A stretch of 64,000 bases of DNA from Aureimonas sp. AU12 (lineage in GTDB: Bacteria; Pseudomonadota; Alphaproteobacteria; Rhizobiales; Rhizobiaceae): contig NZ_BBWH01000005.1 in assembly GCF_001463705.1 (NCBI RefSeq), positions 1-64,000 of the forward strand, in the 5' to 3' direction. Each line of letters begins with the position of its first letter. Within the stretch, counting starts at the first letter, position 1. The notes below the pieces were generated by a model. The model saw only the letters and a program-made list of their open reading frames with translations. It searched no databases and was not told the origin of the DNA. The position numbers and the translations under genes are program-made. Shown here one piece after another: positions 53,426 to 64,000 of the stretch.

Positions 53426-53501
53426 GCCGCTTTAGCTCAGTTGGTAGAGCACGTCATTCGTAATGACGGGGTCAGGTGTTCGAGTCACCTAAGCGGCACC
53501 A
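53426..53501 (+). tRNA. tRNA-Thr (anticodon CGT)
   Basis: The 76-base cloverleaf folds fully: acceptor GCCGCTT with AAGCGGC, D-arm GCTC/GAGC with AGTTGGTA, anticodon arm CGTCA-TTCGTAA-TGACG giving anticodon CGT, variable loop GGGTC, T-arm AGGTG-TTCGAGT-CACCT, discriminator A and encoded CCA. It is followed by a run of T. The prophage genes begin directly downstream, so its 3' end is the likely attachment site. Confidence 0.97.
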
Positions 53502-53537
53502 TATTTTTCAAGCACTTAGCCTAAGCCGACGAGAACA

Positions 53538-59639: not shown

Positions 59640-62225
59640 TTAATTGCGTGGCTCCGGGGGCGCGGCGATCGCCGGCGCCCTGCCCGGCTCGACCTGTCCG
59701 GGCGCCCACCAGTATTCCTGACCGGTGCGCCCCTTCAGGCCGGACGCCTTGGCCTTGAAGCTCTTGTCGGCGTCGGGATCGACGAGCCACTGGAGCTGAT
59801 CGAGGACCAGGCGGCGATACCCGCCGCGCGTCGCCCAATTCGAAGCGACCACCGGCGTATACCGACCCGCAAAGTCCACCGCCTTGCGGCCGGGATTGAC
59901 CTTCTCGCCCAAGGCCGCCTGCAGAGGCAGGCCGACGCCGAGACCGACCGCGTCGGAGAGGAAGCTCCAACCGGGGCCGAGCACGGTATCGGCGACGCCG
60001 CCGCCGAAGCGGTTCGACGAAGAGTTCACGAAGTCGCCGAACAGGCCGAACCCGCCGCCAGTCATCGATGCTTTGAACCAGAAACTGCCGGTGCTCATGT
60101 CCTCGAGATCCTTGCCGTCGAGGAGGCCCTTGATCTGGTTCGACATGGCACCGCCGATCGTCAGCGAGATCGCCATCGCCGCGAAGTACCCGGCAGCCGC
60201 CTGTTTACCGCCCGACTGCATCGCCGTGATCCGCTGCAACGCCTCGAGCTGCAGCGTCGTGAAGGACAGGCCGAAGCTTTTGAACTGCATCGCAAAGTTG
60301 GCGAACTCGCCAAGGAACGTGCCGCGCGCCACTGGACCCGTCACGAAGGATCGCGCGTTCGGCGTGCCGCCCGGCGTCGCCCGCTCCGACCACGCCGCGG
60401 TCATTTCGGCCAGCTTCTCGGCGACCTCGCGATGACGGAGTGCCTTGCCTTCCGCCATCAGCTCGGCGTCGACAAGCGGCCCATCCGGCCCGGCCGCAAG
60501 ATACCGGACCTCGCCGCCGCCGTTGGCGATCGACATCGGCGTGACGAAGCCGGCGGGATCGACGCTGGCCCGCATGACCTCCCAATCGGCCGCGTCGATG
60601 CCGAAGCCTTCCATCGTCACGCGCAGGCGCTCCGGTAGCTTGCCGAAGTCGGTCCCCGCATGGTCGGCGATCGTCGCTTGCCAGGCGCGCGCCTCGACGA
60701 GCTTTCGCCCCGTGGTCAGCGGCTTCAGCCCGTTGAGCATCATCGAACGATCGACGAGATATTGCGACCAGGTGTGGCCGAGCATCGGCCCGGTGAACCG
60801 CGCCTCGCCTTCCATCGCGTGCAGGTAATCGTCCCAGATGACACCGGCGCGCTGGATCTCTTCGCGGTTCGATGCTTTCAGCATCTTCAGCATGGCGCCC
60901 ATATCCTTCACCACGGGCAGGCCGGCGAGCCGACGGGATGCCTGCGCCACGAACGGGTCGGTCAGCGCGGCCGTGACGCCTGCGCCGCCAAGCAGCGCCG
61001 AGTTCATGAGGTTCTTGACGGTCGCCGTGGCGGTGGCGACGCCCGACGCGACGTTCGGCCCGCCGCGCAACTCGGCATAGAGCGCCTGCAGCCGCCATTC
61101 GGCGAAGGCACCCGGCTCCGTTCCGCGCGCCCACTTCGCCATGTCGCCGGCGATCCGCGCCATCGATGCGCGCCCGACATCGCCCTTCGCGATCTCCGAG
61201 CGCACGCCCTGGACCATCCATTGCATCATGGCGTTCGGGTTCGGGCCGAGCACCTCGAGCGCGGCGATGTCCTTCGCCATGCCATTAATGTGCCGGAACA
61301 TGGCCTGCACCGGGTCGCCGCCGCCGAAGCTCTGATTGTACGTCATCCAGTCGTCGGCCGACTTGAAGGCGAGGAAGCGATGCTCCTGCCGCTGGGTCGC
61401 CAGCGAGCCGGCGCCGACGCCCTTCATCTGCGGCGCATGGTGCGCCCAACCCGTCGTCGTGATGCTTTCGAAGACGTGGTCCAACGCCTTGTCGAGACCG
61501 GCAACGCCCACCGGTTCGGCCGTCAACGGATGCAGGATCTTGTCCGGATCGACCAGCGGCTTGATGAACTCTTTCCAAGCCTCGCGGCCCGCCTGGCGCA
61601 CGGCGAGGCCGTTGTGCGAATGCGGCAGACCCCATCCGTCGAGCTTCGGGATCGCCCCGCCGGCGGCGTTGAACCGGTTGCGGAGATCCTCGAAGACGCG
61701 CGACAGGTCTCCGGCGAACGTCTTGGCCGTCGCGTCGGCCGACGCCTCGCCGTGCAGCTCGCGCACGATGTCGCGCACCAGGCCGGCGCTTGCCGTTCGA
61801 CGACCTCGAAGCAAGCTGCGGCTCGTCGCCGTCATCAGGTCCGTCAGCTTGCCGTGCGCCATGGAGACGATCGCCTCCTCGCGGCCGCGCACGCTCTCGG
61901 CGCCGGCATAGCCATAATGCGACAGCGTCTGCACGGCGGCCTCGTAAACGTCGGGGCGCCCCTGCTCGTCGCGGTAGCCGAGCAACCGATCCTTGAGCCG
62001 CACCCGCGCCTTTTCCGTCAGGACGGCCCGCCGGCGCTTCTCGATCGCCTGCGCCTTCAGTTCCCGCGCCAGCTCGTCCTTCGCCGCCTGTGCGGCCCCG
62101 TCGTCGCCGAGCTGCAGTTTCTTTTGCGCATACTTCGTCTCGAAGTCGCGGTTGAGCGCCTCGCCCTCGGCGCGCGTGATCGCGCCCTGCTCGATGGCGG
62201 AGTTCAGGCAGTCGATGAAGGGCAT
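59640..62225 (-). CDS. Very large phage virion/internal protein
   Basis: This 861-residue protein begins with an alpha-helical, highly charged region (residues 1-90) and is rich in long helices throughout. The centre contains GLPHSHNGLAVRQAGREAW and the C-terminal third GEFANFAMQFKSFGLSF, a pattern I associate with internal virion or DNA-ejection proteins of podoviruses. It has no signal peptide. The size and position before the tail fibre match T7 gp15/gp16-type proteins, but no enzymatic motif is clear. Confidence 0.65.
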   Translation of the reverse strand: MPFIDCLNSAIEQGAITRAEGEALNRDFETKYAQKKLQLGDDGAAQAAKDELARELKAQAIEKRRRAVLTEKARVRLKDRLLGYRDEQGRPDVYEAAVQTLSHYGYAGAESVRGREEAIVSMAHGKLTDLMTATSRSLLRGRRTASAGLVRDIVRELHGEASADATAKTFAGDLSRVFEDLRNRFNAAGGAIPKLDGWGLPHSHNGLAVRQAGREAWKEFIKPLVDPDKILHPLTAEPVGVAGLDKALDHVFESITTTGWAHHAPQMKGVGAGSLATQRQEHRFLAFKSADDWMTYNQSFGGGDPVQAMFRHINGMAKDIAALEVLGPNPNAMMQWMVQGVRSEIAKGDVGRASMARIAGDMAKWARGTEPGAFAEWRLQALYAELRGGPNVASGVATATATVKNLMNSALLGGAGVTAALTDPFVAQASRRLAGLPVVKDMGAMLKMLKASNREEIQRAGVIWDDYLHAMEGEARFTGPMLGHTWSQYLVDRSMMLNGLKPLTTGRKLVEARAWQATIADHAGTDFGKLPERLRVTMEGFGIDAADWEVMRASVDPAGFVTPMSIANGGGEVRYLAAGPDGPLVDAELMAEGKALRHREVAEKLAEMTAAWSERATPGGTPNARSFVTGPVARGTFLGEFANFAMQFKSFGLSFTTLQLEALQRITAMQSGGKQAAAGYFAAMAISLTIGGAMSNQIKGLLDGKDLEDMSTGSFWFKASMTGGGFGLFGDFVNSSSNRFGGGVADTVLGPGWSFLSDAVGLGVGLPLQAALGEKVNPGRKAVDFAGRYTPVVASNWATRGGYRRLVLDQLQWLVDPDADKSFKAKASGLKGRTGQEYWWAPGQVEPGRAPAIAAPPEPRN

Positions 62226-62228
62226 GGA

Positions 62229-64000
62229 TCAGACCTTGCAGTTGGCGACCAGGAGGCCGAAATCGTCGTCGCGCTCGGCCCGCGCGAAGAGGTCGGACGG
62301 CGAGACGTAGACGGTGGCGCCGTCCGCATCGGTCCCGTCGGGAATGGCGTCCCACAGGCTCAATTCGCTCTCGCCTCGCGTCGCGTCGGTCGACGGCGTG
62401 ACAACGTCCCACCGAGTGCCCGACCGATCGAAGGATATCAGCATTGAGCGGCCGAACTCATCAGCCGTGAGGGCCCGATCTTCCTGCTGAAACATGCCGT
62501 CGAACCCGCGAACTTGGCGAATGCCATTGGCGGCCTCAAATACGTCTTCGTCGTCGGCATTTCTTCCGATGAATTTGGGACTGCCCTCGTGTGTTGTCCC
62601 GTCGGGAATGGCGTCCCAAAGCGAGGACTGGCCTTCGGCGTCGGGCGTCGCTATATTGGAGCCGGTTGGCGAGGAAAGAGAGCTGTGTCCGCTTTCCTGG
62701 AAACCGGTGGGGCGGTCAGTCGTCTCCCCGCCGCGCCGACCTTTCTCATAAGCCGTCATCAGCCAGGTCTTGGATTCTCCGTCATAGGTCAGGCGGATCA
62801 CGGCTTTATGCGTCGAGTTCTCCAACAGGATGCGGTTCTCGCTCCTCGTCTTGACCGTCGTGCCGGCGAGGATCGACGGGAGATCCTCGAGGACCTCGGG
62901 ATGCTTCTCGGCGATCTTGGCAAGGCCCAGTCCGTTGTCCCTTGCGGCATCGTACCGTCCCCAGATGACATCGATCGGCCCCACGTCGGGATGCGACAGC
63001 AATCCAGCGATCTCGCCATCCCGCCGGCGTGACAAGAAGTCGACGGCCGCCGTCCAGTTGTCGGCGAACGGCTCGCGTGGATAGACCGGCCCTGCCGGTC
63101 CCGTGCCGATCGGCTCGACATCGAGGACGCGGCTCGGCGGAGCACGATGGGGCCGCTCGTCGGGGAAGAGGCCGGCCAGATCTTCCGCCTCGCGCGTCGC
63201 GGGCTCCACCGCTCGCGCGGCCGCAAGCTGCGGCTCGGGCGGCGACAGGAGTGCCGGGAGCCCATCGCGCTCGATCGCCGCCTGAATGTCGCCGATGAAG
63301 GCGCGGGCTTCCCGGCTGGCGTTCGATCCGCCTGCAAACCGCCGTGCGGCCTCCGTGAGCGCGTCCGACACGGGTCCACGTGATCGCGCCATCCGATCGA
63401 CGATCGCGCCCACGGTCTCCGCCGTGACCGCGCGCGACGCATTCCCGGCGGCATCGAGCGCATTACCGGCGGCCTCGATCACGTCAGCGCGCTCGCCGAG
63501 CATGGCAAAGAGGCGCTTATCCTGTCGCAGCACCTTCATCGCCGCGTCGAGCACCTTCACCCGCTCGCCGATCAGCGTCTTGGTCAGGTCGAACGTGCCG
63601 AACATGTCAGTCTGCGTTTCCTGCCGGACGCCGCTCGCCATCACCTCCTCGAGCAGCATCCGAGCCGCCCGGTCGGTCTCGGGATCGAACTTGGCGAGAT
63701 CCGCGATCGCGGCCGCATGCATGCGCGGATCCGCAACGAGCTCTCCGACAAGCGCCGCATGGTTCTGGTCAATCACCCCGTTGACCGTCATCCCCCAAGC
63801 ATCGTCCGACAGGCGCGCCAGAGCTGTCGCCCGGCGCATCATGGCGCCTGACATCGGCAAGCCGTCGTCGAGGAGGTCGGGCCGATCGCGCATCACGCGG
63901 GCGGCGTCGATCGCTTCACCGGATCCCTCCTGCATGTTCTTCTTGGCGGCCATCGCCCGCACGTCCTCGGCCGTCCAGCCGTCGCGCTCGCGGAACAGGT
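62229..64000 (-). CDS. Phage polyvalent-type protein with Barnase/EndoU-like nuclease domain (5' end outside window)
   Basis: Coding sequence in this frame continues upstream past the window edge; the visible part is about 589 residues. Near the start (TGTFDLTKTLIGERVKVLDA and VIEAAGNALDAAGNASRA) it resembles the helical segment found in DdrB-like phage proteins. Bases 62739-62981 encode GPIDVIWG, GLGLAKIAEKHPEVLEDLP, RSENRILLE and HKAVIRLTYDG, the pattern of phage Barnase/EndoU/RelE-like (PBECR) domains. The C-terminus has two SLWDAIPDGT repeats. Polyvalent phage proteins are injected with DNA and act against host defences. Confidence 0.68.
   Translation of the reverse strand, partial: LFRERDGWTAEDVRAMAAKKNMQEGSGEAIDAARVMRDRPDLLDDGLPMSGAMMRRATALARLSDDAWGMTVNGVIDQNHAALVGELVADPRMHAAAIADLAKFDPETDRAARMLLEEVMASGVRQETQTDMFGTFDLTKTLIGERVKVLDAAMKVLRQDKRLFAMLGERADVIEAAGNALDAAGNASRAVTAETVGAIVDRMARSRGPVSDALTEAARRFAGGSNASREARAFIGDIQAAIERDGLPALLSPPEPQLAAARAVEPATREAEDLAGLFPDERPHRAPPSRVLDVEPIGTGPAGPVYPREPFADNWTAAVDFLSRRRDGEIAGLLSHPDVGPIDVIWGRYDAARDNGLGLAKIAEKHPEVLEDLPSILAGTTVKTRSENRILLENSTHKAVIRLTYDGESKTWLMTAYEKGRRGGETTDRPTGFQESGHSSLSSPTGSNIATPDAEGQSSLWDAIPDGTTHEGSPKFIGRNADDEDVFEAANGIRQVRGFDGMFQQEDRALTADEFGRSMLISFDRSGTRWDVVTPSTDATRGESELSLWDAIPDGTDADGATVYVSPSDLFARAERDDDFGLLVANCKV
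62331..62352. repeat. Repeat copy 1 within the polyvalent gene (22 bp)
   Basis: This 22-bp stretch is identical to 62597-62618. It encodes most of the SLWDAIPDGT motif on the minus strand, so it reflects a duplicated C-terminal motif about 266 bp apart. Confidence 0.75.
62597..62618. repeat. Repeat copy 2 within the polyvalent gene (22 bp)
   Basis: This is the identical partner of 62331-62352 in the same reading frame. Flanking codons differ, so the duplication is old or only the motif core is conserved. Confidence 0.75.

Follow-up and report, generated by a model that had tools for sequence, protein, structure and literature searches.

The window, which is the whole stretch of 64,000 bp analyzed here (GC content 68.5%), covers the first part of contig C5 of Aureimonas sp. 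AU12, a contig of 94,285 bp that extends past the window. It ends inside a large gene on the minus strand, the open frame of which runs from 62229 to 63998, and positions 62229 to 64000 contain the final 589 codons (residues 503 to 1091) of a gene for a protein of 1091 amino acids, named the cargo protein in the following. The original prediction had placed a long multidomain phage protein here that starts outside of the window, and this was correct: the complete gene occupies C5 62229-65504, with the ATG at 65504 overlapping the stop codon of the upstream gene. The partner, a phrog_684 protein, is encoded by the next gene downstream, after a gap of 3 bp (Table 1).

Table 1. Positions of the cargo gene, its domains and motifs, and associated prophage features in the window
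Feature	Position	Strand	Remarks
Cargo gene, C-terminal part	62229..64000	-	Residues 503-1091; whole gene C5 62229-65504
ParB/Noc-like unit, part in the window	63630..64000	-	Residues 404-625, begins outside the window; predicted model, Foldseek, VIA-align
PBECR1 nuclease domain	62736..62990	-	Residues 839-923, Pfam match above cut-off; conserved stretch in aligned relatives ~802-930 (62715-63101)
Codon of predicted catalytic His868	62901..62903	-	His in 81/81 aligned PBECR1 domains
Codon of predicted catalytic Thr917	62754..62756	-	Thr in 78/81, Ser in 3/81 aligned PBECR1 domains
SLWDAIPDGT copy 1	62595..62624	-	Residues 961-970; probable remnant of the tail start
Inserted module, function unknown	62367..62594	-	Residues 971-1046; also in G005
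SLWDAIPDGT copy 2	62331..62360	-	Residues 1049-1058; start of the C-terminal tail
Conserved C-terminal tail	62232..62360	-	Residues 1049-1091; kept in relatives
Codon of Cys1089, the only Cys of the protein	62238..62240	-	Third residue from the end of 1091
Partner gene	59640..62225	-	861 aa, phrog_684 virion structural protein; only Cys is Cys6 (62208-62210)
tRNA-Thr	53426..53501	+	At one prophage end
47-bp att-like repeat	53456..53502	.	Second copy at C5 93048-93094, outside the window

Both genes are part of a 39.6-kb element. A 47-bp direct repeat lies with its first copy at the 3' end of the tRNA-Thr gene, and near its second copy is an open reading frame of 446 amino acids (91574-92914), which is read as a putative integrase. 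The element encodes a terminase, a portal-type protein, a major head protein, two tail proteins, a phrog_418 internal virion protein, a 1025-aa Phage_lysozyme2 protein, the cargo protein, and the phrog_684 protein. Because of the att-like repeats and the content and order of the virion genes, it is a podovirus-type prophage with the cargo gene at the place of an ejection protein: the gene is flanked by ejection-type and virion structural genes and is positioned behind the genes for a tail tube and a gp14-like protein, as are those for T7-type internal virion proteins. The assumption that the protein is injected together with the phage DNA agrees with this position, and the gene order and the labels of homologs suggest that the protein may be part of the virion. 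Its own matches in PHROGs were to families of unknown function only. A search with NCBIfam profiles gave no match for three proteins, tblastn of the genome contigs gave no relative, and residues 935 to 1091 matched among viral contigs only the contig of this phage itself.

The C-terminal half contains the predicted nuclease. A relation to PBECR nucleases had been proposed for 62739-62981, and Pfam PBECR1 (PF18809) matched at this place, with slightly different bounds (Table 1), an E value of 2.7e-8, and 34.7 bits compared to a cut-off of 27.6 bits. Iyer et al. (PMC5512222) define PBECR domains by a His residue of the first helix together with a C-terminal Thr or Ser residue, and both are present in the cargo protein as H868 and T917. 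The conservation of these residues was evaluated in an alignment from the best 80 of 92 confirmed viral-contig loci, of which the 90 domain hits gave 81 aligned domains, with 9 left out. An AlphaFold2 model of residues 795 to 1091 was confident for the PBECR1 domain only; in the numbering of the model, helices 66-73 and 75-87 surround H74, and strand 116-126 carries T123. The structural neighbors of this domain include RelE, CdiA-CT, and 1tfk, which we take to be colicin D, with none of them significant (best Foldseek E value 0.064, best VIA Z score 4.8). A structural proof of the BECR fold was dropped due to this result. A search with the PBECR profile in the sequences of solved structures found nothing. 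Family and genomic context suggest that the cargo protein may act as an RNase. Iyer et al. proposed mRNA or CRISPR RNA as PBECR targets (PMC5512222), and any assignment of an RNA target to the domain here would be speculation.

Two matches in other phages may point to annotation problems. In Pseudomonas phage Itty13 (L032 9001-9474, +), a match to residues 746 to 920 is located on the strand opposite to the annotated coding sequences, so that the strand of the annotation may be wrong. In Sinorhizobium phage PBC5 (L031 9001-10636), two large "DarB-like" coding sequences are separated by a gap without annotation, and a PBECR1 match in this gap reads open into the frame of the second one, which may be explained by a split annotation or a frameshift.

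Upstream of the nuclease, a second unit of unlike activity is present in the same polypeptide, recognized by its predicted fold while PBECR1 is recognized by Pfam. With a model of residues 380 to 790 (mean pLDDT of 72), ranks 1 to 18 of the Foldseek search were all ParB, Noc, or Spo0J proteins with a best E value of 3.5e-5, these matches spanned the CTP-binding and the DNA-binding domains, and sulfiredoxins ranked lower. The predicted structure of residues 404 to 625 thus matches a ParB/sulfiredoxin-type fold, and the Arg residue of the GHQR box is invariant in all 12 members aligned. A profile search for DdrB/ParB domains had been suggested as a check; a ParB-type unit is supported here by the predicted fold. 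In the member shown, no Pfam family reached its cut-off for this part, and none of the 12 members matched a named ParB family, in a library that may lack a DdrB-ParB model; no family was common to more than 5 of the 12 members (best E value 0.015, for an unrelated-looking name). The profile of the ParB-like part retrieved from the sequences of solved structures only two designed TPR proteins with E values of 0.2 to 0.3. Judged from fold and GHQR box, the unit may bind CTP, and judged from family and context it may bind DNA.

The cargo protein was compared with its relatives. A match to it was found in 10 of the 101 genomes searched (its own and those of relatives). The cargo protein of G005 is 71% identical overall and contains the RNase. 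Four close relatives are without it: G019 (75% identity over residues 1 to 783, with a viral-contig copy, L036), L037 (75%), L038 (69%), and L039 (65%). In all four, the sequence passes from about residue 783 straight to the last 50 residues, so that the tail is kept. In relatives at a greater distance, the N-terminal domain (about residues 40 to 320) and a tail are still present. With PBECR1 as bait, the domain was found in the gene preceding a phrog_684 homolog on eight further contigs (L057, L059, L064, L073/L074, L076, L084, L123, and L131). LPD3 occupies the cargo slot in L041. In G068 (L026 9256-17694, +), a single frame of 2812 amino acids joins the cargo protein, an ART domain, and the phrog_684 protein. 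These comparisons show that the RNase is an optional passenger and that the tail stays when the RNase is absent, which is new here. The slot between the common N-terminal domain and the fixed tail shows how phages swap early effectors: RNase, LPD3, and, in the fusion, ART.

Two other readings of the cargo protein were considered. The protein could be a structural part of the DNA ejection apparatus, with ParB- and PBECR-like parts that merely bind nucleic acids or are inactive relics. This would agree with the position of the gene among virion genes and with the relatives without the RNase or the ParB-like part, which indicate a core role independent of both; moreover, an inactive PBECR domain was noted in gp30 of phage Mu by Iyer et al. 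(PMC5512222). We nevertheless regard this explanation as unlikely because the predicted catalytic His and Thr residues are intact here, His and Thr or Ser are found in all 81 aligned relatives, and PBECR1 is present in the slot repeatedly and independently. Alternatively, the RNase may be a killer toxin directed against the host or competing phages, similar to polymorphic toxins, with the immunity of the lysogen encoded elsewhere. Polymorphic toxins typically exchange a C-terminal cassette while the carrier is conserved, and a swapped cassette of this kind is what is seen here; BECR-fold domains are common toxins according to Iyer et al. (PMC5512222). The cassette is not terminal, however, since the conserved tail comes after it, and the gene directly downstream, the only adjacent gene considered, encodes the phrog_684 partner and not an immunity protein. 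With the partner gene directly next, there is no adjacent downstream immunity gene, which would fit a target that the phage can spare. A killer toxin is consequently improbable in our view, and the reading as a virion protein with exchangeable passengers is preferred.

The C-terminal part of the cargo protein carries the SLWDAIPDGT motif twice. The original prediction described two identical 22-bp blocks that encode a repeated C-terminal motif. The DNA repeat exists (62332-62357 and 62596-62621), being 25/26 nt identical with a longest exact run of 23 nt, and so do the two copies of the motif, although only the second, 43 residues from the end of the protein, is near the C terminus, while the first is 131 residues away from it. 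When the codons of the frame were shuffled, the longest repeat was at most 14 nt and none of 300 shuffles reached 23 nt; with the protein sequence fixed and synonymous codons permuted, 23 nt or more appeared in 4 of 300. Due to the latter result, the DNA identity beyond the repeat on the protein level is suggestive but not decisive. Close relatives carry SLWDAIP.GT, or a variant of it, as a single copy at the start of the tail. Compared to the DNA of the G019 tail, copy 1 agreed in 14/18 nt of its left flank and copy 2 in 17/18 nt of its right flank, and the other two flanks agreed in 7/18 nt each. Because the outer flanks match the G019 tail and the module lies between the copies, the motif was most likely duplicated upon entry of the 76-residue module into the tail. 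A functional tandem repeat was considered as well and set aside because the relatives carry a single copy and the flanks fit a split tail start. The module itself was found among the loci compared only in this gene and in G005, which contains it with no clear first copy of the motif.

The tail also harbors the only Cys residue of the cargo protein (residue 1089 of 1091). The partner likewise contains one (residue 6 of 861), as does the 1025-aa neighbor, where it is not conserved; two of the control genes counted alongside have approximate starts. Homologs of these proteins contain few: 2 Cys residues in 19,717 residues of the 1025-aa family, 0 in 7,224 of the cargo N-terminal domain, 0 in 2,838 of the ParB-like part, and 25 in 22,244 of the partner family. 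Portal, head, and tail proteins from the same loci contain 349 in 42,121 (Fisher p 1e-88 compared to the ejection-type families, homologs being non-independent); terminase yielded no homolog and portal one for this comparison, the gp14-like proteins (17 Cys residues in 4,795) were excluded from both sides. A similar pattern was found in T7, P22, and N4, where 10 proteins taken as ejected contain 2 Cys residues in 7,952, compared to 89 in 11,984 for 25 others of our own choice (p 2.5e-17). The ejected status was partly taken from record notes and partly assumed by us, wholly so for N4 gp51 and gp52. Values near zero were obtained for T7 gp15 and gp16, P22 gp7, gp16, and gp20, and N4 gp50, and T7 gp14 and gp6.7 contain one Cys residue each. 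In crAss001, five cargo proteins contain 7 Cys residues in 7,478, and 10 others 63 in 7,165. Proteins that are or may be ejected in podophages and crAss001 are thus nearly free of Cys residues, unlike other virion proteins, but this is not universal: the anti-restriction proteins of P1 plus Sit contain 13 in 5,499 amino acids, 9 of them in DarB, and the part of T4 Alt considered contains 2 in 501. Passage through the oxidizing periplasm could explain the low number. The scarcity of Cys residues may serve as a hint, from sequence alone, for which proteins of a podophage or crassvirus enter the cell.

The junction with the partner departs from this scarcity. The junction loci were found via the N-terminal domain, PBECR1, or a match to the whole protein rather than via the tail, and Cys residues were counted from the first recognized domain to the end in proteins with complete C termini, one row per distinct end. 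Where the locus has a separate phrog_684 gene (26 cargo proteins), 26 of 27 Cys residues are within the last 16 residues; in 45 cargo proteins without a separate partner, the fusion included and with some partners possibly missed beyond the fetched stretch, this is 1 of 23. All 27 split gene pairs have a Cys residue in the last 20 residues of the cargo protein, a non-homologous one in case of L059, and 25 have both, the N-terminal Cys of the partner being absent in L059 and L131. In L059, the residue counted is at -4 and the homologous one at -25, and a start of the partner frame is missing close to the junction, perhaps due to an indel. The single natural fusion, in which the match to the partner starts at partner residue 57, contains no Cys residue at all. 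When genes within 300 bp upstream of the partner were evaluated, 25 of 26 had a Cys residue in the last 16 residues, with L051 missed because an intervening open reading frame was picked; no upstream gene was counted at this gap for L021 and the fusion, and the gene pairing shows the tail Cys in both L021 and L051. Cys residues were also counted in 23 cargo relatives, beginning 60 residues ahead of the N-terminal domain: 16 contain exactly one Cys residue, located in the tail, and 7 contain 1 to 3 more, all in the first 25 counted residues and perhaps upstream of the true start.

A parallel exists in crassviruses. The proteins gp47, gp49, and gp50 are present in crAss001 virions, as found by mass spectrometry (PMC10172136), a study in which reduced as well as untreated virions were run. 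A gp49 match was present in 71 records, and junctions were read in nine genomes. The end of gp47 carries a Cys residue at position -3 or -4 in crAss001, cr128, bajarodcaudo virus 1, DAC15, Dulem virus 41, and cr111 (6/6). In the same six phages, gp50 has one in the first 5 (6/6) and one in the last 9 residues (6/6), and gp49 has one in the first 5 residues (5/6); in bajarodcaudo, it is at residue 23, counted from an annotated start that precedes the homologous one by 18 residues. No Cys residue is present at the N terminus of gp47 (4 read) or the C terminus of gp49 (6 read). The assignment of gp47 and gp50 followed place and size in bajarodcaudo, DAC15, and Dulem virus 41; gp50 of bajarodcaudo is annotated as two pieces, and two gp47 are cut at the 5' end. 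The gene order in cr111 and Dulem virus 41 is gp47, gp50, gp49. In cr55 and cr109, a single protein matches gp47 and gp50, with the end Cys at -4 and -3, respectively, and the gp49 relative has its Cys residue at 5 and 4. In crAss002, gp50 and gp49 are one protein of 4245 amino acids that has no Cys residue in the first 34 or the last 75 residues. The rule thus extends to gp47, gp50, and gp49. As a separate observation, the two giant genes of cr109 (L148), when read with table 11, contain 37 and 33 stops; a stop codon is hence probably recoded in this phage.

Terminal Cys residues may couple consecutive split ejected proteins end to end, one near the C terminus of a protein bonding to one near the N terminus of the following protein. 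The resulting train would travel through the phage tail in a fixed order and be released in the reducing cytoplasm, with the residues gone where the proteins are fused. We offer this as a tentative proposal, of which a Cys-Cys bond between the cargo tail and the partner is a speculative part. The residues might instead be a scar of gene splitting or have another use, such as a homodimer disulfide, metal binding, or a buried contact, with no link to the neighbor, and we would give this nearly even chances. The sequence around the tail Cys resembles by eye that around the N-terminal Cys of the partner, as could be expected for halves of a split segment, and the Cys of the partner is missing in 2 of the 27 pairs. 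Against a scar or another use stand the retention of both residues in 25 of 27 split pairs of proteins otherwise nearly free of Cys, their absence from the natural fusion, and the same rule in the crassvirus cargo proteins. A search for Cys residues or disulfides in ejection or virion proteins revealed, as judged by titles and abstracts, no account on this point in the open-licence literature, the only papers covered, so that prior notice is possible; in the text of the N4 polymerase preprint, "cystein," "disulfide," and "Cys" are all absent. Within this literature, the terminal-Cys rule is new here. The extrusion order of crassvirus proteins is likely set by packing and protein-protein interactions, and ejection needs more study, according to PMC10172136. 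If the coupling is true, single Cys residues where genes are split would concretely explain how large phage proteins are delivered in order ahead of the DNA, and in case of the cargo protein the carriage of ParB plus RNase would be coupled by the tail to the phrog_684 protein.

Taken together, we consider it probable that the integrated podovirus-type phage uses the cargo protein as a virion ejection protein, with ParB/Noc-like and PBECR1 passengers and a tail that docks on the partner; packaging, ejection, and docking are deduced here from family and context. The N-terminal domain, also present in relatives, would place the protein in the internal virion apparatus, the middle part would carry the ParB/Noc-like unit plus the optional PBECR1 RNase with its intact predicted catalytic residues, and the C-terminal tail would dock on the phrog_684 partner. 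The Cys pair would lock cargo and partner end to end, both would be ejected together with the phage DNA at infection, and reduction in the cytoplasm would free them. There, the ParB-like unit may bind DNA, and the RNase may cleave RNA that serves defense or host expression in the first minutes of infection.

The gene had been put forward as an undescribed conflict system, and this claim has to be rejected because phage proteins that combine PBECR RNase and ParB domains and are encoded beside virion genes were described in 2017 as polyvalent proteins by Iyer et al. (PMC5512222). The cargo protein is a polyvalent protein of this kind, sharing several unlike domains beside virion genes, the His and Thr residues of PBECR1, and a ParB-type unit. 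A conserved tail behind exchangeable cargo and a terminal Cys, both present here, are not mentioned in the portion of that article seen (PMC5512222). The ParB domain is given there as a four-strand, two-helix domain (PMC5512222), such as DdrB-like ParB, whereas the unit here matches the CTP-binding and DNA-binding domains. New here are the optional RNase cassette, the motif as a duplicated tail start, and the pairing of terminal Cys residues with the next gene. The product of bbp10 of Bordetella phage BPP-1 contains a PBECR1 domain 44.7% identical over residues 802 to 928, and its gene has the same place in the gene order, after those for an internal virion protein and a transglycosylase; unlike the cargo protein, it is 2052 amino acids long, no separate phrog_684 homolog was found, and it has no terminal Cys. 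With T7 gp15 and gp16, P22 gp7, gp16, and gp20, and N4 gp50, the cargo protein shares the near absence of Cys residues and, in case of T7, the position among the virion genes, these being the only features compared. We know of no RNase or ParB unit in these ejection proteins, and unlike cargo protein and partner, they have no terminal Cys pair. Finally, crassvirus gp47, gp50, and gp49, compared by Cys pattern and not by sequence, are related to RNA polymerase, unlike the cargo protein, but are similar to it as large Cys-poor cargo with Cys residues at the facing ends of split neighbors.
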